Shown here: positions 3,543-23,633 of the stretch, in pieces
How positions within the stretch are numbered: the stretch's first letter is position 1
Layout of the letters: the number at the start of each line of letters is the position of its first letter
The notes under the pieces: generated by a model
Told to the model about the DNA's origin: nothing
The model's input: the letters and a program-made list of their open reading frames with translations, nothing else
Database searches by the model: none
Origin: Sedimentisphaerales bacterium
Lineage (GTDB): Bacteria > Planctomycetota > Phycisphaerae > Sedimentisphaerales > SG8-4
Direction: 5' to 3'
DNA: 23,633 nucleotides
Assembly: GCA_016932895.1 (NCBI GenBank)
Contig: JAFGCA010000006.1
Span: forward strand, 1-23,633
Program-made: the position numbers and the translations under genes

Positions 3543-3912
3543 TTTCCTGTCTCCTTTGCAAATGCTCGACGATCTCTTTCAGCGTTAGGTTGTACTGATG
3601 ACCCCGAGCGACGAACTCGTCGCAGATTTGCCGGAGCATGCGTTTTCTTTCCGCTTCGCCGATCTGGACCTCGCGTTGGCCGACGAATGTTCCGGTGCCT
3701 TGTTGGGTGTCCAGGATCTTGAGGATCTCCAACTCGGAGTAGGACTTGCGGATCGTGTTGGGGTTGACCTGCAACTGCACGGCCAACTCCCGCACCGTGG
3801 GCAACTGCTCGCCGGGCAACAGCCGGCCCGAGGCGATCCCGTAGCGAATCTGATCGACGATCTGCCGGTGAAAGGGCACCCCGCTTTTCAAATCCAGCTT
3901 GAACTCAATCAT
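3535..3912 (-). CDS. GntR-family transcriptional regulator, YtrA-like
   Basis: This short 125-residue repressor has the GntR winged helix at about residues 10-78: PFHRQIVDQIRYGIASGRL, LPGEQLPTVRELAVQLQVN and PNTIRKSYSELE, followed by the wing GTGTFV. Only a short helical tail follows (residues 82-125), with no FCD, UTRA or aminotransferase domain. That size is characteristic of the YtrA subfamily, which usually sits first in an operon encoding membrane proteins or transporters and represses it. Here the downstream partner is a slipin overlapping by 8 bp, rather than the usual ABC transporter. The ATG is preceded by GGAG at a 7-base spacing. A promoter and an inverted repeat lie just upstream (3949-3998), consistent with autoregulation. 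Confidence 0.9.
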   Translation of the reverse strand: MIEFKLDLKSGVPFHRQIVDQIRYGIASGRLLPGEQLPTVRELAVQLQVNPNTIRKSYSELEILKILDTQQGTGTFVGQREVQIGEAERKRMLRQICDEFVARGHQYNLTLKEIVEHLQRRQENG

Positions 3913-4196: not shown

Positions 4197-4658
4197 TCAG
4201 GCGAGTGCGGCCCGGGCGTTCGGCACGGTGTCCAGCGGTTTGACCTTGTACGAAACCTGCAAGAGCTTACCCTTCTCGTCGATGAGGAACGAGGAGCGGA
4301 TGATGCCTTCGTAGGTTTTGCCGTACATCGACTTCTCGCCCCACGCGCCGTAGGCCTGGGCGACCTTGTGGTCCGCATCCGAGAGCAGCGGGAAGGCAAG
4401 GTCGTATTTGTCGGCGAACTTCTTCTGTTTGTCCGGCGCGTCCGGGCTGATCCCCACCGCCGCGACGTTCACCTTCGCCAGGTCCTTGCCGGAATCGCGG
4501 ACGCTACACGCCTGTTTCGTACAGCCCGGTGTGTCCGCCTTCGGGTAGAAATACACAAGCAACTTCTTGCCTTTGAAATCCGCCAGCGAGACCTTCTTGC
4601 CCGTTTGGTCCTCCAGGGAAAACGCCGGGGCCTTGTCCCCAACCTTCAATTGTGCCAT
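4197..4658 (-). CDS. bcp: Peroxiredoxin, Bcp/PrxQ type (thioredoxin-dependent thiol peroxidase)
   Basis: This 153-residue cytosolic peroxiredoxin reduces H2O2 and organic hydroperoxides using thioredoxin-derived electrons. The AhpC/TSA fold is intact: VGDKAPAFSLEDQTGKKVSL at the N-terminus, then YFYPKADTPGCTKQAC. C46 is the peroxidatic cysteine in the TPGCT motif. C51, five residues later, is the resolving cysteine typical of atypical 2-Cys Bcp/PrxQ enzymes. R121 in IIRSSFLID is the likely active-site arginine. I chose the ATG at 4658 (MAQLKVGD) because GAAAGG precedes it and it matches family starts; an in-frame ATG at 4688 would add ten residues that do not resemble the family. The length is normal. 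The gene is monocistronic, divergent from the SGNH hydrolase gene, with a perfect palindrome upstream. Confidence 0.95.
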   Translation of the reverse strand: MAQLKVGDKAPAFSLEDQTGKKVSLADFKGKKLLVYFYPKADTPGCTKQACSVRDSGKDLAKVNVAAVGISPDAPDKQKKFADKYDLAFPLLSDADHKVAQAYGAWGEKSMYGKTYEGIIRSSFLIDEKGKLLQVSYKVKPLDTVPNARAALA

Positions 4659-4703
4659 CGTCGTTTCCTTTCTCTCAGCGATATTCATCGGGACGTCGAT
4701 ACT

Positions 4704-6390: not shown

Positions 6391-6466
6391 GGTCGGCTGC
6401 GCGCTGAACAGGCCCCCGCGTTCTCTTGCTGTTCCTCTGTACGGCGAAAAAAAATTCACTTTTTTC

Positions 6467-6495
6467 TTGCAGTCTCTACAATTGTAAAGTAATCT
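6467..6495 (+). promoter_or_regulatory. Tentative promoter of the blaI-like operon with upstream A/T tracts
   Basis: TTGCAG (6467-6472) and TAATCT (6490-6495) are 17 bases apart; the -35 match is good and the -10 match is weak. An A8 tract and a T6 tract (6447-6465) lie directly upstream and could act as an UP element or bend. The BlaI-type palindrome falls inside the spacer, where bound repressor would exclude RNA polymerase. Confidence 0.4.
6477..6486. promoter_or_regulatory. BlaI/MecI-type operator, TACAATTGTA
   Basis: The perfect 10-bp palindrome TACAATTGTA contains the TACA/TGTA half-sites recognised by BlaI/MecI dimers in known systems. It lies 39 bases upstream of the BlaI-like start codon and between the putative -35 and -10 boxes, which supports autorepression of the repressor and the co-transcribed giant peptidase gene. 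Confidence 0.6.
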
Positions 6496-6980: not shown

Positions 6981-9900
6981 ATGAATGCAATCGTTGATAT
7001 CATCAATGCCGTCGGGCGGGCGTTCGTGGATTTCGCCCTGCCCATGCTGGTTCAATCCACCGTCCTGATCCTGGTCCTGCTCGTCGTGGACGCGCTCCTG
7101 CGCAAGCGGGTACGCGCGGTCTTTCGCTACTGGATCTGGGTGCTCGTGCTGATCAAGCTGGTTCTACCGCCTTCGTTGTGGTCGCCGGTCAGCGTGGGCA
7201 GATGGTTCGGCGACGAGCTGCACGTCTCGGCGGAATCTCTTCTTGAGGACGACCAGCCACCGACGGTGGAACCACCCTCGACCGCTCTGCAAATCCTCTC
7301 GCAGCCGGTTCCGCTGTCGGTCGAGCCCTTTGCGGGCGTGCCCGAGCCCCGCGCCGCGACAGCGGAGCCATTGGCTCTTCCGGCCGTTGCGGGCGATGAT
7401 AGAGCGATCCAGCCGGACACCGTAAGTGCGTCGGTGGAAGCGGAGAGGCCCGCTCCCGCTCCCGCGGCGCCCGTTACGGCGCTGGACTGGCGTGGTTTTG
7501 CGCTGCTGGCGTGGGCGAGCGTCGTCGTGGCACTCCTGCTTTTGCTCTTGCAGCGGGCGGTGTTCGTGCAGGGCCTTGTGGCCCAGGCCGCCGAGGCGAG
7601 CGCTTCGATGCAGAACGTTCTGGATGAGTGCCGGGCCCGCATCGGCCTCGGCCGCGCCATAGCGATGAGAATCTCACCGAACGCGACCAGCCCGGCCGTT
7701 TGCGGACTCGCGCGCCCCGTGATTCTGATCCCCCGGAATCTGGCCCCGAAGATCTCCCGCCACGATCTGCACGCCGTGCTGCTGCACGAGCTGGCGCACG
7801 TCAAGCGGGGCGATCTGTGGATCAGCCTCGCCCAGACGCTGCTGCAAATCGTCTATTTCTACAATCCGCTGCTCTGGCTAACCAACGCCGTGATCCGTCG
7901 CGTTCGCGAGAAGGCTGTTGACGAGGCGGTCCTCGTTGCCATGGGCGAGTCGGCCTCCGACTATCCGGAGAGCCTGGTGAACGTGGCCAAGCTCGCCTTC
8001 AAGCGGCGTCCCGTCCTGAGCCTGCGCCTGATCGGCGTCGTCGAATCCAAAAGCGCCCTGACCGCCCGCATCAAACACATCCTCAATCGCCCCTTCCCCA
8101 AGACCGCCAAACTCGGCGGCGTCGGCCTGCTGACGCTGTTCGCCCTGGCCGCCGTGCTGCTGCCCATGGCGAAGGCACGAGAGGATGAGGAGAACGCGGT
8201 CCTGTCCCGATTGGCCGTTGTGCCGAATTGCGCCGTCCGGCTGTCGGATATCAACGGGCAGCATTTGCCCGTGCTCGATTTCGCAAGCGAGAGAATTATC
8301 GTGCTGCCTGCCGTCCAGAACGAGCGCGATCTCCTGCGCATGACCGGTCCCCAGGACCAGGGAGATGTCGTTTACTACTACGACAGCGAAAAGGACAAGC
8401 CCAGGATCACCTTCCTGGGAAGCGCCGGCCTGAACGGTGAATCGGTGTCCGACGAGTACAAGGCGCTTACGCTCACACCGATGCGAATGCCTTTCGAAAC
8501 GACCGTGGCCACGCGGGGCAACAAGCGATTCGCCATCCGCATCATCCGTGCCGACGAGCACGGATGCGTCATTCAGTTTCGTCCTCTGGGGGCCGAGGTC
8601 TCCACGCCCAAGGCCGTTTTGGCAAATGGGATCACAGTCGAGTTGTTGGGCGTCTGCGAGCATCCCAGCGCGGGCAGGCAGTGGTGGTACCCCGACGGCT
8701 CGACGATGAAGGAAGCGCCCCGTAGTCAGAGCGGCGTCCATGTCTATGCGCAAACGTCGGAATCCACCTATGAGTTCGCGGTGCGGCTGCATGATCTGCC
8801 CAAAGGGGCCGCCGTGACCCTGAAGACCGAGCCGATGGGTGCCCGGACCCAGGGACCGGGCGTGGAAGGTCTGCGCTGGTTGGCAGCGACGCTGCCGGAT
8901 GACCTTCGGCAGTGTCGGTTGCTCTGCGGCATAGCGGCCGGAGCCTGGGAAACCCTCGCCCAAAGCTCAGGCGCCGCGCAGAACATCAGCGGAACGGCCC
9001 TGGGCGGCGTCATGTTCTCCGAGGCAAGCGCCCGAGCGGACGGCGCGCTCAGTGTCACCACGACCGATGATATCATCGAACGTCCGTGCCGCGTGGTCGC
9101 TATGGCGAAAGATGGCCGCACCATCGAAGCCTCTAAGTATAAGTGGGGCGAGGCTGGAAAGGCCCGACAGACTACGTCCCGGTTCGAGGGCATCTCTCTC
9201 AGCGAAATTGCAGAGTTTCAGTTCCAGACCCGGCCGTGGACCTGGATCGAGTTCGAGAACGTCTCGCTCCGTCCCGGTCGGGGAACGAATGTCGAAGTCC
9301 GCCTCCCGGTGGATCAGGGACTTCGAGAACAGGATGAGGCACAGCTCGACGAATCTACGACCCTGCCCTTGACCCGACGGACTGAAATGGTAATGCCCCT
9401 GGCCGAGCAGGAGGCCCGACGACTCAATCACGGCTACGTCGGCACGGAGCATATGCTCGTCGCGTTGGCACGCGACAGTGAGGCCGTGGGCGCCCGGGTC
9501 TTGGCGAGCTTCGGTGTCGATGCTGACACGTTGCGCGCGGAGATGGCCAAGCTCGTTAAGCCAGGCTTGGCCCCGTCACCTTCCGGCAAGCTGCCACGCA
9601 CGCCTCGTGTCGATAGCACATTCAACTACGCCAGACAGGAGGCGACAAAGCTCGGCCACGCGTATCTTGGAACCGAGCACCTTCTCCTCGGCATCCTGCG
9701 CGAACGCGAATGCCTGGGCGCGCAGATGCTCGTCAAGCTGGGATTGACGTTGCCCCGGGTCAGGGCTGAACTGCGCAAATTCGTCCGCGCGGCAAACGAA
9801 GAGGATGTTAACGGGAACACTACGGTTCCGATTCCGTCGAGCGAGCCTCGACCATCGCGATTCGCTGCGACGTTGTCCAACGCCGTGACGGTCGAGTTGC

Positions 9901-12900
9901 TCGGTGTCTGTACGTATCCCGGCGCGGACAGGCAGTGGTGGCGGCCGGACGGTGGTTCGTTGCCGCAAGCTCCATGCTCGATCCCCGCCAGTTCCGTCCT
10001 CCACCCTTCCGACGGAGAGACAGTTTATGGATTTGTCGCTCAGGTCACCCATGTGCCGGATGACGCGCGAGGCGCCGTCAAGGTGCCCTCCGCTCGTACC
10101 CAGGCAAGCTACGACATGGCATGGGCGGCCGATGGGACCGTCAGGAAGGACATCTGGTATGCCGAGGCGATTCTGGCCAAAAACCGCAAGACCTGTACGG
10201 TCCGCTGCGAGGTGGCGACCGATATCTGGGCCGAATTTGAGAACGTTTCCTTGCAACTTGGCGGCTCGACCAATCTGGCAGTCAAGGTCGGGCCGAGCGG
10301 AGAGCTGCAAGGCCAGCGAAGGATCGTTCTGCCGGATGTGGACCATGAGGCGGTGATGCTCGATGATCGCGGGGTGTTCTTGCTGGAGCAGCGGGACCCC
10401 GACCGGGCCAATCGCGGCGAGGACCGGCTCTACCTGATCGACGCCGCCGGCAAAGTCCGCAGCATCTTCACGGGGTTGGATTTGTGCGAGACCATCGGCG
10501 GCGCTCACATGATGGCGGTCGATGAGAGCCGCAAGGTCTTGTGGGTGGCCGAGAACGCGGGCAACCGGCTTTGGAAGTTCGACCTGACCACCGGCAAAGT
10601 GGCGGGCCGTTTTCCGGACCTCAGAGCCAGTGCCGTTGCCGTGGATCCGGAGAGCGGGAATGTGTGGGTCGCAGCCGAGCCGGAGTTGATTCGCGTGGTG
10701 TCGCCCCAGGGCAACGTCCTGGCAACGTACGAGATACCGGGGTATGACATCGCATACAGTTCCCGTGACAAGAGCTTCTGGGTCGTGGGCAAGGAGATCT
10801 GCCGGGTGGACCGAGCGGGCCAGATCGTCGCGCGCGTCACTGGCGTAGGGTACGCGGCCGTGTCGGTCGCCACGGACCCTCACACCGGTGAGGCGTGGGT
10901 GGCGATTGCCTCCCACTCGCAAGTGCCGAAGAGCCGGAACGAATTATGGCATGTCGACGCCACCGGCGTCGTGCGGCACCGCCTCGACCTCGACGAGCTC
11001 AGGCCTTACTGCGTGCGGGTCGATTCCGACCACAGCGTCGTCTGGGTCGGTTGTCGCGGCACGACACTGCGCTATGACACCAGCGGGAACAGGCTGGCGT
11101 CGACGCGTGGAGAGTCGGCTTTTTCCATCGCGCTGAGCGGCCGCAAGGAGGTGGCGTACCTGGCCGACAGGACGGGGGCACACGAAGTCGTCGTGCTGGA
11201 TTCGGGGCACGTGAAGTCCCGATCCCTCCTGTCTGACGTGAGCGACGTCCAGCAGAGCCAGAAGTGGATCGCACGCGTGCCGTTGGCGCAAGCAATGCTG
11301 CCGACGTCTCCGGAGATGGTCGAGCTGGTTCCCACAAGGCAGGAGGCGTCGACGCCGGGGATCGCCGTCTCCGCGAGCAAGACGGAATCGGCGGACAAGC
11401 TGCTGCAATTAGGAATGGCTCTGCTGATTCACGCGGCCGGCCACGAGGACCGGCTTCCCTTGGCGTTGAGCGAAGTCAGGGCCGAGATGAGCGAGCCGGA
11501 TTTCTGGTGGTGCCGGGAGCACGCCGAGTACATCGGCCGAGGCATCAAGCGCAGCGCCCGGGCGCTTGACGACAGGGCAGTGGTCGTAGCCTACGACAAG
11601 ACACTTCTCCGGCAGGGTGAAGGCACGAATGTTCTCTTTCTCGACCCTCACGTCGAGTTTCTTTCGCCCGACCGCCTGCAAGAACTCGCCATCTCCACTG
11701 CGGAGACTCCGGACAGGGACTTGTCCGCCGGGCGTATTGAACTGCCGGATGTGGATCATGAGGCGGTGATGCTCGATCTGGCCGGTGGCCGGCTTGTGCC
11801 GGTACCTCAGGTTGGGCCGCCGGAGAAGCTCCTGGAAGCCATCGAAGAGTTAGGCAAGGGAGACATCGTGCTTGATAGTCGCTCCCTGATCCTGGTTCGG
11901 GGAGCTACGTCCAGGCAGGCTGAGGGTGGCCCTGCGGATCTCGTGAGGCTCGTCAAGATTGGTTCGCACCTGCCCGAGACCTTCTCCGTTACCACCGCCG
12001 AAGGCTGGCAGTATGTAATCACGGTTCTTTCCATCGATGACGAGGCTTGCACGCTCACATATTCTCTGTCTCCTGTCGAACCCATGCAAACCCGCAGTTC
12101 TTCCGCACCGGATGCGCATGCAAATGAACCAGCCAGCGCGCTGGCGTTCTGTGTCGCGGTGAGCCGGACCGATGTTCCCGAGGCGATTGTGAAACGGTAT
12201 GAGGAAGGGTTTGCCGAGGACCGACGCCCACCGGGCGGTGATTATGCCTGGTTTGAGGTACGACCAAATGTGACATTGTCGCCCGAGCTGGTGGCGCTGG
12301 AACGCGAGGGAACGACGTTTCTCCTGCTCCGCACCGGCGAGCCGTACGTTATGCGTGCGGGGCCGGGCTGGGCCGTCGAACGCGTCAAGGCAGCCACCGA
12401 CGCCATGGACCGGCCTGCCGTGCGGGTGTGGCTCGACGACAAGGGCGGCGAACGCTTGCACGCGTTGACACAGGCGAACGTGAAGAAGGTCCTGGCAATT
12501 CTCGTTGAAGGCCGGGTCGTTGCCGCTCCCGAGGTCATGAGCCCAGTGAGAGACGCGGTACTCATCGTTGGAAATTACACGCAACGAGAAGTCCAGGAGA
12601 TGATCGACGTCCTGCGACCGAAGCCGCCCGAGCAACCCGTCGCGTTGTCGTCGGCCGTTTCCGACAAGCCCGGTGCAGGCGATTCCAAAGACAAAACGGA
12701 GCCGGCGGCGGATGTACTGGCGAACCTGCGCCAATTAGCCTTGGGCGTCGTCCTGTTCGCCCACGATCACGAAGGAGACTTGCCCACGACACTGAGGGAC
12801 ATCGAACGCCACGTCCCCGACCGCGCGCAGTTTGCCTGGATGCGCGCGAACGTCACTTATGTCGGCAAGGGCAACCTCAAACGCGAAGCCAAAGCCTACG

Positions 12901-15900
12901 CGGTCCCCATCGCGTATAGAAAGGCACCGGAGTCCGTCGGCGGCGCCTACGTCGCCTTCATGGACGGCCACGTCGTGCTCGTATCGTCCGAACGCTGCAA
13001 AGAGCTCGGCATCAGACGTGTTGCCGGGGAAGACGCAGTCGGCGCCAGGGTGCGGTACCCGGAATCCGGTCCGCTCGGTGGGCATGCTCTCTCCTTTGAC
13101 GGCGTCGACGACTGTCTGGTGGTGCCGCCTAGTGCGTCGCTGACGTTGAAGCCGCCGTTCTTCGTTGAGGTGTGGGCCCGGCCCGATCTGTCTGTGCTTC
13201 CACAAGAGCGTTTCGATCCGAGGAAGGCCCCGTACCCCGCGATGGACTTCATATGCCAGGGGCGCGCGCCCAAGTCGGCAGGGCCCGCAAACCTGGACAG
13301 CAAAGCCAATACGGAGACGCTCGACGGATGGCCCGTTCCTTCGACAGTTTCTCGTCCCCTCGTACAGCCGCTTCAATCGGGCGGATTTGCGACGTTTCTG
13401 GAGGGCGGTGTGTTTGTGGTCGATGAGACGAGCCACGCCGCGCAAACGGGTCTCATCCGGACGAACCAATTAGAGGTGGACCGCCCGGGCTGGACGCATT
13501 ACTACTTCGAGTTGCGCCGAGACAACGTCGCACGGAGAAAGTACGTACTGGCTGAGGGCCCGCTTGTGATCGGCCGGGTAGTGCGCAATGGGTTCCCGTT
13601 CAAAGGCCAAATCGCCGAGATCCGCATCTGGAACAAGGAACTGAGTATGGGGGATATGCGCTACGTCGGCTCGACGTCGGTGACCGGCAACGAGCCGAAC
13701 CTCGTCGCCTGCTGGAGGTTCGAGGAGGGTAGCGGCCAGATCGTCCGCGACATCAGCCCCAACGCCAACCACGCCTACCTCGGAGGCTCTGAAGATGTCG
13801 ACGACGCCGACCCGAAGTGGGTGGACCTGGCACAGGATGAAGCGTCGGCGCCCGGTGGAATCGCCGGGCGGGTGGTCGATGCCGACGGGAAGGCGGTTGC
13901 CGGGGCCCAGGTGGCGTTTTGCACGGAGACGATTCATGTGACGATCCAGGACGGGAGGCTATCCCACCCCCGGGCCAGTGACATGGAGAAAGGGGAGATT
14001 GCCGAGACGGGTGCTCAGGGCCTGTTCCGGTTCGACAGCGAAACCCCGGGGGACTTTAGTCTAATCGCGGCACACGACGACGGATTTGCTCTGGTCGAAT
14101 TGGAGAGTTTCAGAAAGGACTGCGAGATCCGGCTGGAACGTTGGGGACGTATCGAAGGGCAACTGGCGTCCGGACGCACGGCACAGGGGAATCAGATATC
14201 GATGTGCGGCCTGCCAAATTCGACATGGCGCAAGCACAGATGTGACTTTCGGTACGAGACCAAGTGTGACGGCCAAGGGCGTTTCGCTTTTGAGCGCGTC
14301 CCCGCTGGACGCTTCGAGGTCGGATATCTGGCCAGCACCGGGCGTGGTTCGGCTTCGGTGACCTCGCGGACACCGGTTGTGGTCGACTCCGGACGGACAG
14401 CGACTATGAAGCTGGGTGGAGAAGGTCGCCCGGTGATTGGCAAACTCGTACCGCCGCAAGGCTATCACGGGCCGATCTACTTTGGCCAGGGGCTGCGCTC
14501 GCTGAGCACGTCGCGCCCCGAAGAGCCACGACCTGAGAACTACGATCAGATGAGCCGCCGCGAGCAACAGGCATGGCACGGCCAATGGCGCCAAACGCCG
14601 GAGGCCGAGGCGTTCTATGAGGCGATGTGGAGCAACCTGAACTGGCGACACTATTGCTTCAGCATCCAGCAGGACGGCTCGTTTCGGATCGAAGACGTGA
14701 TCCCGGGCAAATACGACTTGAACGTCTGGCTGGAGGAACGTTTCACCGGCCAGGGTCGGCCCGAAGAGATCGGCGGCTACAACGGGATCGTGGAAGTGCC
14801 TCCCATGGCCGAGGTGAGCACAGACGAACCGCTCGACCTCGGCGAATTGACGCTGAGTATGAGACATCCGCTGCACGTCGGTGACACGGTACCGGAGTTC
14901 GAGGCCGAGACACTCGACGGCAAAGCCATCAGCTTGGCCGACTACCGCGGCCGACACGTCCTGCTGAGCTTCTGGTCCCCCACGTTCCATCCGGAACTGG
15001 AACGCCTCAGGGAACTGCACGCCGATTATGGAAAGACAGGCCAGTTGCAAATCATCGGGCTGGGCGGAACGGACACGCGCGATGAAGTGACGAGCTACAT
15101 CAACGAGCATAATATTGCATGGCCCCAGATCTACTTCGGCTCCGATTGGAACGCTGATCTGTTCAAGAAACTTGGCGGTCAGGTGCAGATCATACTGATC
15201 GATCCCAAGGGCAAAGTTGTCGCGACCTGGCTTCGCGGGGACAAGCTCTCCGACACCGTCCGCGAAGCTGTGGCCTTCGCCTGGCAGCGGACGGATGGTT
15301 ATGTCGCGCCCGATCCGGAGAGGTTCTTTCCCGATGATGCCGAGGGGGGCAAGAGGTTGGACGCGCTGTTCAAGGCCGTCGATAAGGATCGGCGCAGCGA
15401 CGAGGAGATTCTCTCGACCGTGCGCCGGGGCTTTCGTCGGACGAAGGAGTATCGCTCGAACATCCTGCGGTGGATCGGCAACCGGTACGTTTGGGGTGCG
15501 GATCCACAGAACGCCGAGGCGATTGAGATCATGTACCACGCGGTGGGGATGGAGAGACATTACGCGATCTACTTCGGTCTCTCGGTCGTCAAGGACAAGA
15601 CGCCGAACATTCTCCGCGCGCTGGCCGAGATCTGCATGCAGGGCGAAGACGTTGGGCGCATTACCTGGGGCGTCGGCGCGCAGCGCGATGAACTCGTCGC
15701 CTATATCAAGCCGTACCTCGACGATGCCGACCCGCAGAAGCGCGAAACCGCTTCGGTCCTCGTGCAGCACTTCGAGGGAAAGCTGGACTTCGACCGGTGG
15801 AAGGAAGAGAAACGCCTGGATCAGGCGAAGGTCGAATTCGCCGGCCACCTGCCCAAATTCAAACAGACTCTCCTGACCGGCGACAGCCGCGCCCGGCGCG

Positions 15901-18059
15901 AGGTCTTCACGACGATTCAGCGAGAGGGTCTCGCCGCGCTGCTGGACGATTCCTTCGTGCCGGCCTTTCAGGCGTGCGGCGCTGATCCGGACCGGAAGGT
16001 CCGCAACGAAGTCGCGCGCATGGCGGGCGGTCGCTGGGTGTGGGGGGCGCAGGAGCAGGACCCCAACGCGATCGCGCTGATGCTCGAGCTGGCCTCGGAC
16101 AAGGTTCGGGATGTGCGCTACAATGCGGTCTACTACGGCCTGTCCGTCGTGCGTGACAAGACCGAGCCGGTCGTGCGCCGTCTCGTCGAGCTGGCGTTGT
16201 CCGACCACGAGAACAACCTCTACGGGCGCATCGTCTGGGGTCTCAAAGGGCCCATGCGTGCCTCGCCCGAGCCGTTCGAGAAAGTCTTGGCCGAGTACCT
16301 CAACGCGAGCGAGTCCAACGACCACTTGGCCGCGTCAGTATACTTGCTCTACCGCGACGTCCTGCAGAAGGAACCGCCCGCCGCGTGGAATCTGGCGCGA
16401 ATCAAACAACAGTATCCCGACGATCTTTTCACGATTACGTTCTCCGCCAAGGAACCTTTCGCCCCGGCAAACTCGGGCGCCCTCTGGAACGAGTTCGCCA
16501 GGACACTTCCGTCGAAAGCTGCGGTAAACCGCGTGGCCGACTTTCGCAGGGGCAAGCCCTTCGTTTGCGTTGCACAGGTCCGTTCGCAACAGCAGGCCGA
16601 CGTCGTCAGGCAGTCCATCGACAGCAATCCTCGCCTGAGCCTCGGCAAGGTCCGGCCCGTGCCCCTGTGGGTGCAGCTCTACGAGGAGGAGAAACGCGGC
16701 ATGAGCAGCTTTCCGCCTGACGATGAAGCCATCGCGTCCCTGTTTGGCGCGAAGGTTTCCGAACCGGGTCCCGTCCAGCAGCGGATTGACGCCGCGGCAC
16801 CGGGTGACACGATCCGCCTGGAGCCCGGCCTCTACAAGGAAAGCCTGATCATCAACAAGCCGCTGACGCTCGAGGGCGCCGGCTGGGACAAGACGGTCAT
16901 TATGAAGGAGAAGCTGGTCGTCGAGTCTTTCGAGGAGATTCAGCGGATGATGTTCCAACGCCTGTCGCAAGCCGAATCGGAGGCCCAGCGAGAGGAAATG
17001 GCCGCCCAGATGAGGAAGCAACTGGCCGAGAGGGTGTCCCCGACGGCGCTACGCGTGGAGGGCGCACGGGACGTGGTCGTTCGCGGTATCAAGTTCACCT
17101 CGCCCGGCGGGCACGTCGAGGGAACCTCGATGAGTTTGCCGATTGTCATATTCGCTCGCAGCGGCGTTCGATTCGAGGACTGTGCGGTAATCGGCGGCCC
17201 GGGAGATGGCATTCATGTTCTCAATGCGGCCGACGCAGAGATCGAACGAACGCTCGTGGCGGCCGTGTGGGGTACCGGGGTCACCGTGGGTGGGAAGGCC
17301 GGGACGCCGTCCCGCATGCGCCTCCAGGATTGTGACATGCGCAACTGCCATTATGCGGGCGTTCGCATTGGCAAAGGCAACGACGATACGCGCATCGAGC
17401 GCTGCCGCATCTCGGGGGCCGCCTGGCACGGCATTCGCTACGACAGCGCGTCCCCGCGCGTGGTGAACAATCTGATCTTTGGCAACGCCCGCTCGGGCAT
17501 CTACGCTTCGGGCGAGACCGCCGCCGTCGTCAGCGACAACCTCTTCTATGCCAACGAAATGTGCGGTGTCTCCTGCTGGTTCCAGAACCGCGACACGATC
17601 GAGGGCAACACGTTCGTGGGAAACAAGCGTTCGGGGCTGGAGGTCCTCGGAGCGTCGGCGCCCAGCGTGCGCCGGAACATCTTCTATGCCAATCCCACCG
17701 GTGTATTCCTGGGCAACATCGGTAGCAAGTCTCGCTTCGCCCAATCCGATGGGACGGTTGCTCTCCAGGACAATCTCTTCTGGGCCAACGCGCACGACGT
17801 GGCATGTCGGCCCGATGCGAACACGGTCGAAACGATCGTACCGGGCCAGGAGACGCACACGCTCCGGACCGATCCGCAATTCGCCGCTGCGGCGACGAAG
17901 GATTTCTCCCTGGCCGTCGGCTCGCCGGCTCGGCAAAACGACATCGGCGTTGCCGACCCCATCTCGTTTGCCGGTCCCTGGCCGCTGCAACCCGAAGAGC
18001 GAGCCATCATCCCCGAAGGCGACACCCGCGATTCGCGCCTGTGGCGACACGCGAACTGA
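6981..18059 (+). CDS. Giant BlaR1-like M56 metallopeptidase with ~3290-residue mosaic ectodomain
   Basis: This is an uninterrupted 3692-residue frame; GGAGG precedes the ATG. Residues 1-400 are M56/BlaR1-like: helices near 18-40, 47-63, 172-190 and 378-396, zinc motif HELAH (269-273) and E310 in REKAVDEAV. Later residues should be extracytoplasmic. Approximate order: 400-545 beta-rich region; 546-775 VELLGVC/EFENVSL module; 797-860 and 871-940 Clp-N-like repeats; 964-1105 second VELLGVC module; 1117-1430 NHL-like propeller; 1469-1572 H-X9-DG-like module; 1586-1700 LPDVDHEAVMLD module; 1720-1884 SecD-P1-like; 1909-2012 second H-X9-DG-like module; 2032-2285 LamG; 2291-2628 carboxypeptidase-regulatory-like and beta domains; 2629-2767 redoxin-like without CxxC; 2774-2950 and 2950-3134 duplicated HEAT-like; 3264-3660 parallel beta-helix. 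By analogy with BlaR1 it senses an external signal and triggers BlaI inactivation; the ligand is unknown. Confidence 0.9.
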   Translation: MNAIVDIINAVGRAFVDFALPMLVQSTVLILVLLVVDALLRKRVRAVFRYWIWVLVLIKLVLPPSLWSPVSVGRWFGDELHVSAESLLEDDQPPTVEPPSTALQILSQPVPLSVEPFAGVPEPRAATAEPLALPAVAGDDRAIQPDTVSASVEAERPAPAPAAPVTALDWRGFALLAWASVVVALLLLLLQRAVFVQGLVAQAAEASASMQNVLDECRARIGLGRAIAMRISPNATSPAVCGLARPVILIPRNLAPKISRHDLHAVLLHELAHVKRGDLWISLAQTLLQIVYFYNPLLWLTNAVIRRVREKAVDEAVLVAMGESASDYPESLVNVAKLAFKRRPVLSLRLIGVVESKSALTARIKHILNRPFPKTAKLGGVGLLTLFALAAVLLPMAKAREDEENAVLSRLAVVPNCAVRLSDINGQHLPVLDFASERIIVLPAVQNERDLLRMTGPQDQGDVVYYYDSEKDKPRITFLGSAGLNGESVSDEYKALTLTPMRMPFETTVATRGNKRFAIRIIRADEHGCVIQFRPLGAEVSTPKAVLANGITVELLGVCEHPSAGRQWWYPDGSTMKEAPRSQSGVHVYAQTSESTYEFAVRLHDLPKGAAVTLKTEPMGARTQGPGVEGLRWLAATLPDDLRQCRLLCGIAAGAWETLAQSSGAAQNISGTALGGVMFSEASARADGALSVTTTDDIIERPCRVVAMAKDGRTIEASKYKWGEAGKARQTTSRFEGISLSEIAEFQFQTRPWTWIEFENVSLRPGRGTNVEVRLPVDQGLREQDEAQLDESTTLPLTRRTEMVMPLAEQEARRLNHGYVGTEHMLVALARDSEAVGARVLASFGVDADTLRAEMAKLVKPGLAPSPSGKLPRTPRVDSTFNYARQEATKLGHAYLGTEHLLLGILRERECLGAQMLVKLGLTLPRVRAELRKFVRAANEEDVNGNTTVPIPSSEPRPSRFAATLSNAVTVELLGVCTYPGADRQWWRPDGGSLPQAPCSIPASSVLHPSDGETVYGFVAQVTHVPDDARGAVKVPSARTQASYDMAWAADGTVRKDIWYAEAILAKNRKTCTVRCEVATDIWAEFENVSLQLGGSTNLAVKVGPSGELQGQRRIVLPDVDHEAVMLDDRGVFLLEQRDPDRANRGEDRLYLIDAAGKVRSIFTGLDLCETIGGAHMMAVDESRKVLWVAENAGNRLWKFDLTTGKVAGRFPDLRASAVAVDPESGNVWVAAEPELIRVVSPQGNVLATYEIPGYDIAYSSRDKSFWVVGKEICRVDRAGQIVARVTGVGYAAVSVATDPHTGEAWVAIASHSQVPKSRNELWHVDATGVVRHRLDLDELRPYCVRVDSDHSVVWVGCRGTTLRYDTSGNRLASTRGESAFSIALSGRKEVAYLADRTGAHEVVVLDSGHVKSRSLLSDVSDVQQSQKWIARVPLAQAMLPTSPEMVELVPTRQEASTPGIAVSASKTESADKLLQLGMALLIHAAGHEDRLPLALSEVRAEMSEPDFWWCREHAEYIGRGIKRSARALDDRAVVVAYDKTLLRQGEGTNVLFLDPHVEFLSPDRLQELAISTAETPDRDLSAGRIELPDVDHEAVMLDLAGGRLVPVPQVGPPEKLLEAIEELGKGDIVLDSRSLILVRGATSRQAEGGPADLVRLVKIGSHLPETFSVTTAEGWQYVITVLSIDDEACTLTYSLSPVEPMQTRSSSAPDAHANEPASALAFCVAVSRTDVPEAIVKRYEEGFAEDRRPPGGDYAWFEVRPNVTLSPELVALEREGTTFLLLRTGEPYVMRAGPGWAVERVKAATDAMDRPAVRVWLDDKGGERLHALTQANVKKVLAILVEGRVVAAPEVMSPVRDAVLIVGNYTQREVQEMIDVLRPKPPEQPVALSSAVSDKPGAGDSKDKTEPAADVLANLRQLALGVVLFAHDHEGDLPTTLRDIERHVPDRAQFAWMRANVTYVGKGNLKREAKAYAVPIAYRKAPESVGGAYVAFMDGHVVLVSSERCKELGIRRVAGEDAVGARVRYPESGPLGGHALSFDGVDDCLVVPPSASLTLKPPFFVEVWARPDLSVLPQERFDPRKAPYPAMDFICQGRAPKSAGPANLDSKANTETLDGWPVPSTVSRPLVQPLQSGGFATFLEGGVFVVDETSHAAQTGLIRTNQLEVDRPGWTHYYFELRRDNVARRKYVLAEGPLVIGRVVRNGFPFKGQIAEIRIWNKELSMGDMRYVGSTSVTGNEPNLVACWRFEEGSGQIVRDISPNANHAYLGGSEDVDDADPKWVDLAQDEASAPGGIAGRVVDADGKAVAGAQVAFCTETIHVTIQDGRLSHPRASDMEKGEIAETGAQGLFRFDSETPGDFSLIAAHDDGFALVELESFRKDCEIRLERWGRIEGQLASGRTAQGNQISMCGLPNSTWRKHRCDFRYETKCDGQGRFAFERVPAGRFEVGYLASTGRGSASVTSRTPVVVDSGRTATMKLGGEGRPVIGKLVPPQGYHGPIYFGQGLRSLSTSRPEEPRPENYDQMSRREQQAWHGQWRQTPEAEAFYEAMWSNLNWRHYCFSIQQDGSFRIEDVIPGKYDLNVWLEERFTGQGRPEEIGGYNGIVEVPPMAEVSTDEPLDLGELTLSMRHPLHVGDTVPEFEAETLDGKAISLADYRGRHVLLSFWSPTFHPELERLRELHADYGKTGQLQIIGLGGTDTRDEVTSYINEHNIAWPQIYFGSDWNADLFKKLGGQVQIILIDPKGKVVATWLRGDKLSDTVREAVAFAWQRTDGYVAPDPERFFPDDAEGGKRLDALFKAVDKDRRSDEEILSTVRRGFRRTKEYRSNILRWIGNRYVWGADPQNAEAIEIMYHAVGMERHYAIYFGLSVVKDKTPNILRALAEICMQGEDVGRITWGVGAQRDELVAYIKPYLDDADPQKRETASVLVQHFEGKLDFDRWKEEKRLDQAKVEFAGHLPKFKQTLLTGDSRARREVFTTIQREGLAALLDDSFVPAFQACGADPDRKVRNEVARMAGGRWVWGAQEQDPNAIALMLELASDKVRDVRYNAVYYGLSVVRDKTEPVVRRLVELALSDHENNLYGRIVWGLKGPMRASPEPFEKVLAEYLNASESNDHLAASVYLLYRDVLQKEPPAAWNLARIKQQYPDDLFTITFSAKEPFAPANSGALWNEFARTLPSKAAVNRVADFRRGKPFVCVAQVRSQQQADVVRQSIDSNPRLSLGKVRPVPLWVQLYEEEKRGMSSFPPDDEAIASLFGAKVSEPGPVQQRIDAAAPGDTIRLEPGLYKESLIINKPLTLEGAGWDKTVIMKEKLVVESFEEIQRMMFQRLSQAESEAQREEMAAQMRKQLAERVSPTALRVEGARDVVVRGIKFTSPGGHVEGTSMSLPIVIFARSGVRFEDCAVIGGPGDGIHVLNAADAEIERTLVAAVWGTGVTVGGKAGTPSRMRLQDCDMRNCHYAGVRIGKGNDDTRIERCRISGAAWHGIRYDSASPRVVNNLIFGNARSGIYASGETAAVVSDNLFYANEMCGVSCWFQNRDTIEGNTFVGNKRSGLEVLGASAPSVRRNIFYANPTGVFLGNIGSKSRFAQSDGTVALQDNLFWANAHDVACRPDANTVETIVPGQETHTLRTDPQFAAAATKDFSLAVGSPARQNDIGVADPISFAGPWPLQPEERAIIPEGDTRDSRLWRHAN
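8601..9306 (+). repeat. Copy 1 of the VELLGVC...EFENVSL protein module
   Basis: Within the giant protein, residues about 546-775 begin with ITVELLGVC (553-559 for VELLGVC) and QWWYPDG and end with EFENVSLRPGRGTNVEVRL. A second copy at 9870-10295 has the same landmarks. This copy is longer, with an extra segment including LSEIAEFQFQTRPW just before EFENVSL. The function is not known. Confidence 0.7.
9370..9800 (+). repeat. Two tandem Clp-N-like repeats inside the giant protein
   Basis: Residues about 797-860 contain GYVGTEHMLVAL and 871-940 contain AYLGTEHLLLGIL, each followed by the glycine/alanine helix and a terminal arginine-rich helix (TLRAEMAKLV, RVRAELRKFV). This is the pattern of the paired N-terminal repeats of ClpA/ClpC, normally a cytosolic substrate or adaptor docking domain. 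No AAA+ Walker motif is attached. Confidence 0.7.
9870..10295 (+). repeat. Copy 2 of the VELLGVC...EFENVSL protein module
   Basis: Residues about 964-1105 repeat the landmarks of copy 1: VTVELLGVC, RQWWRPDG, and EFENVSLQLGGSTNLAVKV. It lies directly after the second Clp-N-like repeat, so the pair of modules brackets the two Clp-N-like domains. Confidence 0.7.
10329..10364 (+). repeat. 36-bp near-identical direct repeat, copy 1
   Basis: This DNA encodes LPDVDHEAVMLD at the start of the propeller region. It differs from the copy at 11742-11777 at a single third-codon base (GAC versus GAT), so the similarity exceeds what protein conservation alone requires. Confidence 0.8.
11742..11777 (+). repeat. 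36-bp near-identical direct repeat, copy 2
   Basis: This is the second copy of the LPDVDHEAVMLD coding segment, 1413 bp downstream of the first, matching at 35 of 36 bases. It introduces a module with the phrase LGKGDIVLD rather than a propeller, so the shared segment sits at a domain boundary in both places. Confidence 0.8.
15300..16380 (+). repeat. Duplicated HEAT-like module inside the giant protein
   Basis: Two successive ~180-residue helical segments (about 2774-2950 and 2950-3134) share landmarks in the same order: R(Y/W)VWGA, then Y(F/Y)GLSVV(K/R)DKT, then GRI(T/V)WG. The pattern indicates tandem duplication of an alpha-solenoid unit; HEAT-like is the nearest fold I can suggest. Confidence 0.7.
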
Positions 18060-18276: not shown

Positions 18277-19695
18277 ATGAGTGCAAACGGATCGCAACTG
18301 AGATTGAATCGTCGTCGATTTCTTCGTTCGGCGGCCGGCGCCGGGGCGGCGCTGGCCTTGGGACCGGTGGCGCTGGGACAGGGTCAGGGCGTTTCGCCAT
18401 CGGAGGAAATCAACGTGGCTCTGGTCGGCGCGGGCAGCCAGGGCAAGGTGCTGCTGGAGGCCGCGCGGCGCATCGAGGGCGTGCGGTTCCGCGCGGTCTG
18501 TGACATCTGGTTGTTCAATCGCAGGTGGGTGTCGCGGCGTCTGAAGGCCTACGGGCATGAGTGCAACGCCTACGAAGACATTGCAGAGATGCTCCACAAG
18601 GAGAAAGACCTGGACGCGGTTATCATCGCGACGCCCGATTTCTGGCACGCCCGCCATACCGTGGCGTGCCTCAACGCCGGCCTGCACGTCTACTGCGAGA
18701 AGGAGATGTCCAACACGCTCGATGGCGCGCGGCAGATGGTGGAAGCGGCGCGCAAAACAGGCAAGCTTTTACAGATCGGCCACCAGCGGCGCAGCAATCC
18801 GCGCTATATCTTCTGCTGTGAAAAGCTCTTGAAGGAGGTGAAGCTTCTGGGTCGCATCGTCGCGGTCAACGGCCAGTGGAACCGGGCGGTTCACACACCG
18901 CTCGGCTGGCCGAAGCAGTATGAAATCGATGCGGCCACGCTGGGAAAGTACGGCTACGATTCGATGCAGCAATTCCGCAACTGGCGTTGGTACAAGGGCC
19001 TCGGCGGTGGTCCCATCGTGGACCTCGGCTCGCACCAGATCGATGTGTACAACTGGTTCCTCGGCGCCCGGCCCACCTCGGTCCTGGCCAGCGGGCGGAC
19101 GAACTACTACGACAACAAGACGCACCAGTGGTACGATACGGTCGTGGCTGTGTACGAATACGAAGTGCCTCAGGGCGGCGTCACGGCCTCGTACCAGACC
19201 CTCACGGCCAACCGGCACCTGGGCTATTTCGAGAAGTTCATGGGCGATGAGGGAACGCTGGTCATCTCGGAGCGGTCCTTTGTCGGCCAGCTCTGTCCCG
19301 AGCCGACTGCGCAGCAGGACGGTCGAGTCAAGTGGGCAACCGGTCTCAAGGATGGATATCTCACCGCCTCGAAAGCCGTGATGGAGATGGTCGACCGCAT
19401 GACGGTGCAGCAGCTTGCCAAGGCTCTGTCTGTGGACCCGTCACCGCTTCCGATCAGCACGAATCCTTCGGCGACGACCGGCGCGGCCCTGATGAGCTGC
19501 AACCTCTCCATACGCATGGACAAGCCTGCTCATCAGCCGCACCTAGAGAACTTCTTCGGCGCGGTTCGCGGCAAAGCCAAACTGAACTGTTCGGCCAAGA
19601 CCGGCTACGAGACCGCGGTTACGGTCCTGAAGGTTAACGAGGCCGCCGAGGCAGGGCGCAAGCTCAGCTTCAAGCCCGCGGAGTATGTTGTGTGA
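18277..19695 (+). CDS. Tat-exported Gfo/Idh/MocA-family oxidoreductase
   Basis: This is a 472-residue protein. The ATG at 18277 follows CCAGGAG and opens a twin-arginine signal (NRRRFLRSAAGAGAALALG, residues 11-29), so the folded, cofactor-loaded enzyme is likely exported; the long upstream extension of the frame is not coding. The Rossmann domain has VALVGAGSQGK, with GAGSQG at 51-56 for NAD(P). The usual EKP catalytic-lysine motif reads CEKEMSN here (EKE at 141-143): the lysine is kept and the proline replaced. The C-terminal domain has GGGPIVDLGSHQIDVYNW, with D249, H253 and D256 where the family places substrate-contact residues. Such exported paralogues are abundant in Planctomycetota and probably act on sugars or sugar-derived compounds; the substrate is not visible. 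Confidence 0.92.
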   Translation: MSANGSQLRLNRRRFLRSAAGAGAALALGPVALGQGQGVSPSEEINVALVGAGSQGKVLLEAARRIEGVRFRAVCDIWLFNRRWVSRRLKAYGHECNAYEDIAEMLHKEKDLDAVIIATPDFWHARHTVACLNAGLHVYCEKEMSNTLDGARQMVEAARKTGKLLQIGHQRRSNPRYIFCCEKLLKEVKLLGRIVAVNGQWNRAVHTPLGWPKQYEIDAATLGKYGYDSMQQFRNWRWYKGLGGGPIVDLGSHQIDVYNWFLGARPTSVLASGRTNYYDNKTHQWYDTVVAVYEYEVPQGGVTASYQTLTANRHLGYFEKFMGDEGTLVISERSFVGQLCPEPTAQQDGRVKWATGLKDGYLTASKAVMEMVDRMTVQQLAKALSVDPSPLPISTNPSATTGAALMSCNLSIRMDKPAHQPHLENFFGAVRGKAKLNCSAKTGYETAVTVLKVNEAAEAGRKLSFKPAEYVV

Positions 19696-21061: not shown

Positions 21062-21204
21062 TGCGCGATCATAACAGCCAGATTCATTCAAAGGGCCAGG
21101 GGCGCGGACTTCTGCCCGCCAGCAGCGCAGCGGTCTTGTCCGGGCAAGGCACCAAGTTAGATCCACATCCGAATGTTCGTGCACTTGGGCCCACCGACGT
21201 GTAA
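21061..21204 (+). CDS. Possible 47-residue leader ORF
   Basis: This frame starts at an ATG overlapping the previous stop by one base and ends 43 bp before the LamG start. An AAAGGAGG sequence lies only two bases upstream of the ATG, too close for normal initiation, so coupling would be needed. Its composition is unremarkable and no family is recognised. Confidence 0.15.
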   Translation: MRDHNSQIHSKGQGRGLLPASSAAVLSGQGTKLDPHPNVRALGPTDV

Positions 21205-21247
21205 CGAAGGCACGTATATCTTCAGTCTCAATAAGGGAGGGCTAACA

Positions 21248-23633
21248 ATGCGCAGAGAATGGATGTATCCAATTTCTCTTGTTGTGGCACTGGCGCTATC
21301 TGGCGCGAGCGTATCCAACGCTGCTGACCCCTCATTGGTGTTGAATCTCCCATTTGACGAAGGAGGCGGAGAGCCGCAAGACGTTTCTATGTATGGGCAT
21401 GAAGCCCAACTTGTCAACAGTCCCGAGTGGGTCGATGGGAAATACGGCAGCGCGTTGGAGTTCGATGGAACAAATTATGTCATAGTTCCAATTACAGATA
21501 CGCTGCAGTTAGTAGAAACCTTTACCGTGGAATTCTGGGTACAAAGGGGAGCGACTCAACCGGGAACGTGGAACTACATGGTCGCCGGCGGCACGCTCAT
21601 GTGGGGTGTGATTTTCAACGCCAGCGACGAAAGCGTCTACGTCTGGAGCCGCTCAGGTGGCACCTGGGCACAGCGGTTGGTCAGCTCCGTACCGCTGTCA
21701 ACAGACTGGACGCATATTGCCATGACCTACGACGTGGGCAGTGGAGTAGAGCTGTATTTTGACGGCGAGAAGGCAGGGGAAGGCGGGGCGCCTCCCGTTG
21801 TGGATGAAATCGACGGCTCCATCATGGTCGGCGCAAGAAACCCGGGGCAGGAATTCTTCGCCGGTCTCATCGATGAAGTGGCTCTCTACGACCGAATTCT
21901 ATCGTTGGACGAAATCACAAAGGACATGAAAGGTGAGCCCCGGCCTTCTGCCCTGGCCCCCAACCCGTCCGATGGCGCCATGCTTGAGAGCACCTCCGCG
22001 CTTCTCACATGGAGGCCGGGTGATTTCGCCGTTTCGCACGACATCTACTTCGGCGAGAGTTTCGACGACGTAAATCAGGCTACGCGTGAGGATGACACGC
22101 TCAGGAGCACCCAGGCAGAAGCGGCACTGGCGGTGGAGGGCCTGACCCCTGGAGCAACCTACTACTGGCGGGTCGACGAGGTCAACGATCTCCATCCGGA
22201 CACTCCGTGGAAAGGCAACGTTTGGAGTTTCTGGGTGCGGCCGGAAATTGCCTGGCGCCCCGTTCCTGCCAACGGGGGCACGTACGTGGACCCGGATCAG
22301 GATTTGAGTTGGGAAAAGGGTCTGGGGGCGCTGTTCCACACCGTCTACTTCGGAGAGACGTTCGAGGAGGTCAGAGACATGCCGGCCGGTGGTTGGATGA
22401 CCGCGGCTGCTGTCTATGATCCGGGAACACTGGAGCCCGACAAGACCTACTACTGGCGTGTTGACGAATTCGCGCAGACCGGAACGCACAAGGGCGAGGT
22501 CTGGAGCTTCACGACGGTGCCCGAGATACCGGTTGCGGATGACCCCAATCTGGTACTGTGGTGGACGATGGATGAAGGACAGGGGGCCGTAGGTCCTGCC
22601 GACTGGTCCGGGCATAGCAACCGCGCGACCATGGTGGATGACGTCCAGTGGAGCGTGGACGGATACGACGGTGGCGCCCTGGAATTCGACGGCAGAAAGG
22701 ACTACATCTACGCCCCGATGGCCCCGATTCTGCCCAGCCAGACCGTCTGCCTCTGGGTAAAGACGCGGGAGGCACCCGCATCAATCCTGGGCTGGTCCAA
22801 TGCCCATCCAACTCACGGCACCCATGACAAAGAGCTGTATGTCAACGCCGACGGCCGCGTAGAATGGCGCATCTGGACTGCTGCGGACAACATCGTTACC
22901 TCCGTGAAGACGATCAGGGACGGGCACTGGCACCACCTTGCGGGAGTGTACACTGATGAAGGCACGACCGAGCTCTACCTTGACGGCGTGTCGCAGGGCT
23001 CCAACAGCGCCAGCGGGATATACAACGCCTACGCCTCCCCCTATTTGACGGTCGGCATCGAATCGATGCAGAGCAGATACCTTGTGGGCGCGGTTGATGA
23101 CGTGCGCGTGTACGACAAGGCCTTGAGCCTGGCCGAAATCGAGGAGGTGATGCGGGGCGATCCGTTGCTGGCTGCAAATCCCGATCCGGCTCGTGGCGCG
23201 ACGGTGGATATTCGCGACGCGACCGCCCTGAGCTGGAGCGCCGGAGGTACGGCCGTCTCGCACGATGTATACTTCGGGACCGACAGGGACGCCGTGGCCT
23301 CCGCCGGCAGAAACGTCCCCGAGTTCCGGGGCAATCAGCCGGGTGCCGGCTTCTCGCTGGCCGGTCTGGTCGCGTTCGGTGGAGGGGACTATTACTGGCG
23401 CATCGACGAAGTCGAAACCGATGGGACCGTGCGAACCGGGAAGATCTGGAGATTCACAATACCGGCTCACTTGATCGTGGACGACTTCGAGAGCTACACC
23501 AACGAGGTCGGCTCCCGTGTCTTCGAGGTGTGGGTCGACGGTGTCGGTTTCACGCTGCCGGAACCGGGGAATCTGGGTAATGGCACCGGGGCCGTGGTCG
23601 GCCACGATATCTGGAGCGTGGACAGCCCGTACT
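21248..23633 (+). CDS. Secreted multidomain LamG protein (3' partial)
   Basis: The frame is open from the ATG at 21248 to the end of the window, giving 795 residues without a stop. GGGAGGG lies 7 bases before the ATG. Residues 1-25 are a signal peptide (ISLVVALALSGASVSNA-A). LamG domain 1 (about 27-225) starts SLVLNLPFDEGGG and has YGSALEFDG and FAGLIDEVALYDRILS. Two Fn3-like repeats (227-428) each carry HD/HTVYFGE-type strands and YYWRVDE. LamG domain 2 (about 430-635) has GGALEFDGRKDYIYAP, WHHLAGVY and GAVDDVRVYDKALS. A third Fn3-like repeat (636-735) ends YYWRIDE, and a last domain opens IVDDFESYTNE. LamG folds bind carbohydrate, and the domain order suggests a surface polysaccharide-binding or degrading protein. 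No catalytic domain is reached. Confidence 0.92.
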   Translation, partial: MRREWMYPISLVVALALSGASVSNAADPSLVLNLPFDEGGGEPQDVSMYGHEAQLVNSPEWVDGKYGSALEFDGTNYVIVPITDTLQLVETFTVEFWVQRGATQPGTWNYMVAGGTLMWGVIFNASDESVYVWSRSGGTWAQRLVSSVPLSTDWTHIAMTYDVGSGVELYFDGEKAGEGGAPPVVDEIDGSIMVGARNPGQEFFAGLIDEVALYDRILSLDEITKDMKGEPRPSALAPNPSDGAMLESTSALLTWRPGDFAVSHDIYFGESFDDVNQATREDDTLRSTQAEAALAVEGLTPGATYYWRVDEVNDLHPDTPWKGNVWSFWVRPEIAWRPVPANGGTYVDPDQDLSWEKGLGALFHTVYFGETFEEVRDMPAGGWMTAAAVYDPGTLEPDKTYYWRVDEFAQTGTHKGEVWSFTTVPEIPVADDPNLVLWWTMDEGQGAVGPADWSGHSNRATMVDDVQWSVDGYDGGALEFDGRKDYIYAPMAPILPSQTVCLWVKTREAPASILGWSNAHPTHGTHDKELYVNADGRVEWRIWTAADNIVTSVKTIRDGHWHHLAGVYTDEGTTELYLDGVSQGSNSASGIYNAYASPYLTVGIESMQSRYLVGAVDDVRVYDKALSLAEIEEVMRGDPLLAANPDPARGATVDIRDATALSWSAGGTAVSHDVYFGTDRDAVASAGRNVPEFRGNQPGAGFSLAGLVAFGGGDYYWRIDEVETDGTVRTGKIWRFTIPAHLIVDDFESYTNEVGSRVFEVWVDGVGFTLPEPGNLGNGTGAVVGHDIWSVDSPY

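Follow-up and report, generated by a model that had tools for sequence, protein, structure and literature searches.

A BlaR1-type membrane protease and its BlaI-like repressor partner in Phycisphaerae-type planctomycetes: shuffled ectodomain modules on a conserved core

Introduction

The BlaR1/BlaI pair is the textbook example of a one-ligand switch. What, then, is the role of a locus in which a BlaI-like repressor gene is followed by one giant frame that fuses an M56 zinc protease to approximately 3290 extracytoplasmic residues devoid of a penicillin-binding domain? We addressed this question in a stretch of 23,633 nucleotides from a Sedimentisphaerales bacterium (contig JAFGCA010000006.1 of assembly GCA_016932895.1), hereafter called the window. 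A first-pass annotation, made from the letters alone, had read the locus as a BlaR1-like transducer with a mosaic ectodomain, and such a family was not described in the open-licence PMC text that we searched.

New here are a combinatorial ectodomain and an apparently self-only regulon on a BlaR1-BlaI-like switch. Furthermore, ectodomains that were rebuilt between close relatives while the core stayed fixed amount to a set of module-swap experiments done by nature with one and the same transducer. They allow one to ask which modules sense, how in-frame rebuilding spares signalling, and whether this receptor constitutes its own output.

Results

The giant frame is intact and belongs to a family

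The frame (6981..18059, + strand) starts with ATG and encodes 3692 residues without an internal stop, exactly as the first-pass annotation had claimed, and it is real rather than an accident of assembly. That it might be an assembly chimera, or several genes misread as one, is hardly credible: three of its 15 module junctions (second module B to propeller-like segment, D1 to E, and E to the SecD-like module) are spanned by no relative under the criteria used, but the remaining 12 recur in relatives, databases hold further giant M56 proteins, and a relative on a single 6.5-Mb contig carries an open frame of 1713 aa. Junction recurrence together with the giant relatives led us to discard the chimera and fused-gene readings. 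The 33 proteins listed among 1975 scored in the database search comprised the studied protein itself, 31 other M56 proteins of 2065-4347 residues with module sets overlapping its own, and one unrelated LamG protein; the protein is therefore not a singleton.

For the comparative work, 80 genome stretches yielded 82 M56 frames of at least 120 bits, 69 of them complete (438-4347 aa). Together with the database relatives, and with duplicates removed, they form a family set of 110 proteins, in which the database entries P0002-P0032 may include contig-cut ends. The family is common in one order of Phycisphaerae-type planctomycetes, that of genome G001, where 69 of 161 genomes matched the core at E<=1e-60 and 63 at E<=1e-75. 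When 294 genomes were sampled evenly across the phylum, three of them matched at E<=1e-75, including G001 and G008, which are both in the order list as well. A relative titled Limisphaerales (L006), with a core 52% identical, indicates that the family is not strictly confined to this order.

The core is an intact BlaR1-type M56 protease

The zinc protease assigned by the first-pass annotation was recovered by Pfam (Peptidase_M56, E=5.3e-43, best stretch residues 157-367), with HELAH at residues 269-273 and the third ligand E310 in place (Table 1). H269, E270 and H273 are kept in 109 of the 110 family proteins (one gap), and E310 in all of them. The four proposed membrane helices likewise agree with hydropathy (19-residue mean above 1.6), which marks residues 14-72 (interpreted as two helices from overlapping segments), 168-203 and 375-399, and no such segment in the 3692-aa protein beyond residue 399. 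Sequence relatives in the PDB at E<=0.001 were exclusively S. aureus BlaR1 chains (best E=2.8e-9), and when an AF2 model of residues 1-404 (pLDDT 80.4) was submitted to Foldseek, all six matches at E<=0.001 were again BlaR1 chains, for instance 8exr_A (TMt 0.59, rmsd 2.6 over 164 columns). The superposition is poor for the full-length BlaR1 chains (rmsd 15-16), and the NCBIfam BlaR1/MecR1 models match residues 175-394 only, far under their cut-offs. The protein thus possesses an intact BlaR1-type M56 protease, whose core belongs to the BlaR1 protease family. Across all 3692 residues, no C-terminal penicillin-binding sensor domain and no penicillin-binding or transpeptidase family was found in Pfam at E<=0.1, in keeping with the lack of a penicillin-binding motif noted at first pass; by this definition the giant protein is not a beta-lactam sensor.

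Two sites of presumptive processing are conserved. The segment SLRLIG aligns with the self-cleavage site of BlaR1, given as Ser283/Phe284 in PMC9834060; it is covered by segment 347-353, one of the low-confidence segments of the core model, and G352, E355 and S356 are kept in 110 of 110 family proteins. The last helix terminates in LPMAKA, where P395 and M396 are present in 109 of 110 proteins (one gap) and A397 in 104 of 110, and small residues occupy positions -3 and -1 in 90 of 109. According to the same paper, signal peptidase cuts BlaR1 at a place matching this AKA site, and the shedding is treated there as receptor turnover and not as output.

Table 1. Features of the operon in the window, with coordinates, strand and basis of assignment; residue numbers refer to the 3692-aa protein.
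Feature	Position	Strand	Basis
Promoter-like element: TTGCAG (6467-6472), 17-nt spacer, TAATCT (6490-6495)	6467..6495	+	read from sequence
BlaI-type operator dyad CTCTACAATTGTAAAG	6474..6489	.	fills promoter spacer between the -35-like and -10-like elements
BlaI/MecI-like repressor, 133 aa	6525..6926	+	Penicillinase_R E=1.5e-29; start from alignment and ribosome site
M56 core, residues 1-399	6981..8177	+	four membrane helices and zinc protease domain; Pfam, PDB sequence search, hydropathy, AF2
HELAH zinc motif, residues 269-273	7785..7799	+	third ligand E310 at 7908-7910
SLRLIG, residues 347-352	8019..8036	+	aligns with BlaR1 self-cleavage site
AKA, residues 397-399, end of helix 4	8169..8177	+	signal-peptidase-I-like site
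Module A (related to E), residues 409-531	8205..8573	+	family profile
Module B, residues 544-773	8610..9299	+	all-beta, two Ig-like sheets; profile matches in 65/110 proteins
Two Clp_N repeats, residues 796-939	9366..9797	+	Pfam E=1.3e-27; in 17/110 proteins
Second, partial module B, residues 963-1088	9867..10244	+	family profile
36-nt direct repeat, copy 1	10329..10364	+	detached 5' tip of E module, just before propeller-like segment
Propeller-like segment, residues 1150-1453	10428..11339	+	labelled by eye; profile match in 3/110 proteins
H-X9-DG-like module D1, residues 1469-1573	11385..11699	+	profile matches in 35/110 proteins
Module E, residues 1586-1695	11736..12065	+	profile matches in 30/110 proteins
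36-nt direct repeat, copy 2	11742..11777	+	at start of complete E module
SecDF_P1_head-like module, residues 1721-1879	12141..12617	+	Pfam E=2.3e-12; profile matches in 24/110
H-X9-DG-like module D2, residues 1914-2011	12720..13013	+	NCBIfam pre_pil_HX9DG 16.8 bits, below cut-off 19
LamG-like module, residues 2029-2286	13065..13838	+	Laminin_G_3 18.5 bits, below cut-off 27.6; profile in 16/110
CReg (carboxypeptidase-regulatory/fn3_3) block, residues 2293-2627	13857..14861	+	Pfam; profile matches in 35/110
Redox (thioredoxin-fold) module without CxxC, residues 2630-2764	14868..15272	+	Pfam, alignment
HEAT-like block, residues 2767-3134	15279..16382	+	HEAT_2 18.4 bits, below cut-off 27.7; in 18/110
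Module K, residues 3134-3245	16380..16715	+	in 10/110 proteins
Right-handed beta-helix block, residues 3262-3689	16764..18047	+	Beta_helix E=2.3e-26, NosD E=1.5e-12; profile in 23/110

A mosaic ectodomain

Above the Pfam cut-offs, the ectodomain contains Clp_N (two stretches), SecDF_P1_head, CarboxypepD_reg, fn3_3, AhpC-TSA/Redoxin, Beta_helix and NosD, while the Laminin_G_3 and HEAT_2 matches lie below theirs. Profiles built from the family itself additionally define module B (all-beta, Ig-like), A/E, two H-X9-DG-like modules, the propeller-like segment and K, and it is by adding these to the Pfam set that the earlier estimate of at least ten module types holds. The commonest module is B, for which AF2 predicted, with high confidence (pLDDT 95.2), an all-beta structure composed of Ig-like sheets; its model had no Foldseek match in the PDB at E<=0.001 and no match to a named fold, an absence that says little. 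The propeller-like segment gave no PDB sequence match at E<=0.1 and no database match for its label. In the Redox module, the CxxC active site is absent from the giant protein and from 23 of 26 family copies, a loss that speaks for a role in structure or binding more than in redox catalysis and disfavours an enzymatic redoxin output.

The repressor gene and its operator

The BlaI-like gene, whose start we placed at 6525 instead of 6426 on the basis of alignment and ribosome site, lies 55 nt upstream of the giant gene, and a BlaI-like ORF precedes the M56 frame in 79 of the 80 relatives whose 5' end is intact. This operon, the BlaI-type operator within its promoter, and the conservation of protease residues and self-cleavage region all bear out the proposed coupling of a BlaR1-type transducer to a BlaI-like repressor. 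The ligands suggested at first pass (carbohydrate, contact or envelope state) gained no support from these analyses. The promoter-like element is weak against the sigma-70 consensus and a promoter scan returned a different pair (6455..6482); the same layout was seen upstream of blaI in many relatives.

The operator is rare. Allowing up to 3 mismatches, CTCTACAATTGTAAAG matched once in the window, with 0 matches expected. Genome searches with strict patterns covered eight relatives, and their evidence thus comes from relatives and not from the window's own genome: each of the eight contained a single strict operator, situated at the orthologous place, and a further test gave the same result in 6 of 6. 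With one mismatch, the eight genomes contained 7 further sites versus 23 for the reversed control, and neither strict nor one-mismatch patterns revealed in these eight relatives a separate effector gene under the same operator. The repressor therefore seems, from operator sequences, to control its own operon only, although weak or half-site targets may have escaped these patterns. More broadly, TACANNTGTA was found at most 118 nt ahead of blaI in 39 of 77 relatives (shuffles: mean 0.2, maximum 2), and of the 38 relatives without it, several have other dyads and others none that we recognised. In other BlaI subfamilies, different dyads such as TTCGACACATGTCGAA and TTTGATTTAGATCAAA occur at a similar distance, a pattern suggesting that each pair has its own specificity; operator specificities may possibly co-evolve with BlaI subfamilies. 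Differing dyads upstream of blaI were noted in L198, L210, L212, L199, L201, L207, L177 and others.

Apart from BlaI, no gene is a general neighbour of the M56 frame, the second largest cluster of neighbours being present in 9 of 83 loci. Directly downstream of the giant gene lies a Gfo/Idh/MocA oxidoreductase gene with a twin-arginine signal (18304-19695, +). A MocA-type gene occurs within 1 kb downstream on the same strand in the window and in 5 of 82 relatives, so that a downstream effector is possible in some relatives; as a conserved effector it was rejected. Elsewhere in the window we noted an FG-GAP repeat protein (1019-2209, +), an SPFH/band-7 (HflK-like) gene adjoining a GntR-type regulator (2565-3912, -), a frame upstream of the operon that begins MAQLKVGDKAPAFSLEDQTGKKVSLADFKG and by eye is thiol-peroxidase-like (4197-4688, -), and another large LamG/fn3-type protein that runs past the window end (21173-23632, +). 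Plasmid carriage was dismissed after megablast returned no match, as was an anti-phage defence system, with PADLOC assigning 0 families to four window proteins.

Ectodomains are rebuilt on a fixed core

A search for homologues with the same module order next to BlaI had been suggested at first pass; the BlaI neighbour was found, and family profiles reveal module subsets and orders that differ between proteins. For instance, 14 of 90 single-copy module pairs were seen in both orders, with HEAT occurring before as well as after CReg. Proteins P0007 and P0009 share cores 94% identical and a HEAT-K-beta-helix end 93% identical, and their remaining modules are absent or matched at just 38-69%. In L139, L140 and L141, flanking DNA matches on both sides at 84-91%, which identifies them as the same locus, and the genes measure 6.2, 5.9 and 10.8 kb, with extra modules in frame.

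We quantified this as the collinear cover of the shorter ectodomain, using complete genome-derived ORFs only and dropping pairs with an ectodomain below 150 aa (1 and 41). At a core identity of at least 60%, the mean cover was 0.25 in 270 main pairs versus 0.99 in 7 control pairs, and at 75% or more it was 0.50 (10 pairs) versus 1.00 (3 pairs), the control being a subfamily with the same kind of core that was picked after its equal lengths were seen. A third small group, rich in H-X9-DG modules, was intermediate (3 pairs 0.60, 6 pairs 0.51). In 82 main pairs with cores 75-94% identical, the mean was 0.50 by the shorter ectodomain, with 37 of 82 under 0.5, and 0.35 by the less-covered one; part of this difference is length.

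A breakpoint was resolved in L139, which is a hybrid of two neighbouring L141 modules joined at a repeated module start. Its left 100 nt match L141 copy 1 at 94 positions and copy 2 at 27, its right 100 nt match copy 2 at 91 and copy 1 at 32, and the 28-nt seam matches both copies (26 and 25 of 28). Such a pattern would be expected after a crossover between repeated starts of modules. A count of the shared-seam motif was unusable as evidence, as its 34 occurrences in 30 of 110 proteins are mainly the starts of one module. The window gene itself contains just one near-exact direct repeat of 22 nt or longer; it spans 36 nt, and its two copies are identical at 35 of 36 positions (Table 1).

Each of G009, G010, G012 and G014 has a single CReg-Redox copy with at least 60% identity, which lies within the giant frame. 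In G013 (one 6.5-Mb contig), the CReg-Redox copy is located elsewhere, by itself in a frame of 384 aa, and a 2092-aa frame without M56 carries B, E and D modules. The module-bearing frames without M56 at L218:6651-7805 and L219:4807-11085 of this genome lie far from its M56 locus; the G013 frames look like detached or donor pieces.

In close pairs, dN/dS amounted to 0.23-0.33 in seven ectodomain blocks and to 0.16-0.38 in four core rows (11 rows used; one further ectodomain row was out of frame). The compared ectodomain blocks are under purifying selection, which disfavours junk accretion of pseudogene pieces. Altogether, modules are gained, lost and reordered in frame on a conserved protease core. 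This hypervariable, recombining ectodomain, the confinement of the operator to its own operon in 8 of 8 relatives, and the known giant M56 relatives were missed by the first-pass annotation.

Discussion

On balance, we consider it more probable than not that the locus encodes a transmembrane protease-sensor of the BlaR1 type, the modular ectodomain of which recombines, together with a BlaI-like repressor that has a single recognisable target, namely its own operon. By analogy with BlaR1, BlaI dimers would occupy the dyad between -35 and -10 at rest and keep the operon low. Engagement of the ectodomain would then transmit strain via the helices to the cytosolic M56 site, which would cut itself near 350/351 and also cut BlaI, and the operon, derepressed by the loss of BlaI, would produce further copies of the receptor. 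Once the cytosolic cut had been made, the last helix would resemble a signal peptide, with a basic start, a hydrophobic core and AKA, so that signal peptidase could free the 3290-residue ectodomain; shedding, like the preceding steps, is extrapolated from BlaR1. Much of the output may lie in the exported modules and not in a separate target gene. More tentatively, at somewhat less than even chances, we propose a receptor class in which in-frame modules recombine at short repeated starts on a fixed core, the repressor keeps a single operator in the genome, located at the promoter of the receptor, one gene thus serves as sensor and effector, and proteolysis increases its expression as well as freeing the array.

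Other readings deserve consideration. The protein could be a classical sensor of a polymer or surface, with BlaI switching unlinked genes via weaker operators that our patterns missed. BlaI and MecI do govern separate effector genes in staphylococci, and half of the relatives lack the strict dyad; however, each genome searched holds one strict operator, and one-mismatch sites are in no excess over the reversed-pattern control, so that we regard a separate regulon as unlikely. Rather improbable, in our view, is a sheddable variable surface protein or adhesin, for which M56 would be an anchor and release device and signalling would be secondary or lost. Adhesion-like modules (Ig-like B, LamG, beta-helix), the signal-peptidase-like site and thioredoxin-fold copies that mostly lost CxxC (23 of 26) would suit such a protein, but the catalytic residues and the pairing with BlaI are almost invariably conserved, and operator dyads are retained in the promoter spacer.

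Fast module turnover on a conserved core, as well as a regulon that looks limited to the receptor itself, might also be expected of a variable receptor for kin or partner recognition, its ectodomain diversified by recombination because identity is the signal. Yet the locus has neither a conserved immunity partner nor a conserved second polymorphic gene, and we judge this very unlikely. The protease-sensor that regulates its own operon remains our preferred reading, and it can be set beside known systems.

BlaR1/BlaI and MecR1/MecI (S. aureus BlaR1, PDB 8exp) likewise possess an M56 zinc protease with four helices, a cleavage region before the last helix with a signal-peptidase-like site after it, an adjoining BlaI-family repressor gene and an operator of the TACA-TGTA type. 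In contrast to these, the planctomycete protein carries some 3290 residues of shuffled modules in place of one penicillin-binding domain, the repressor gene comes first, and in eight relatives the operator is found at its own operon only, with no beta-lactamase-like target seen. ECF sigma systems are somewhat reminiscent as well. At L221:2662-6725 (G012), we observed another signalling pair, in which a gene of the sigma-70 family precedes one for a large protein that carries CarboxypepD_reg and AhpC-TSA modules; this partner has the same module kinds (CReg, AhpC-TSA) at approximately 32% identity, but a sigma factor stands in place of BlaI and the large protein is without M56. Finally, polymorphic toxins and tip-swapping surface proteins combine a conserved front with variable, recombining downstream cassettes, and so does the family described here. 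However, compared with polymorphic toxins, where a toxin/immunity pair has no counterpart identified here, the front is a signalling protease, and it is nearly the whole ectodomain that varies, not the C-terminal tip alone.
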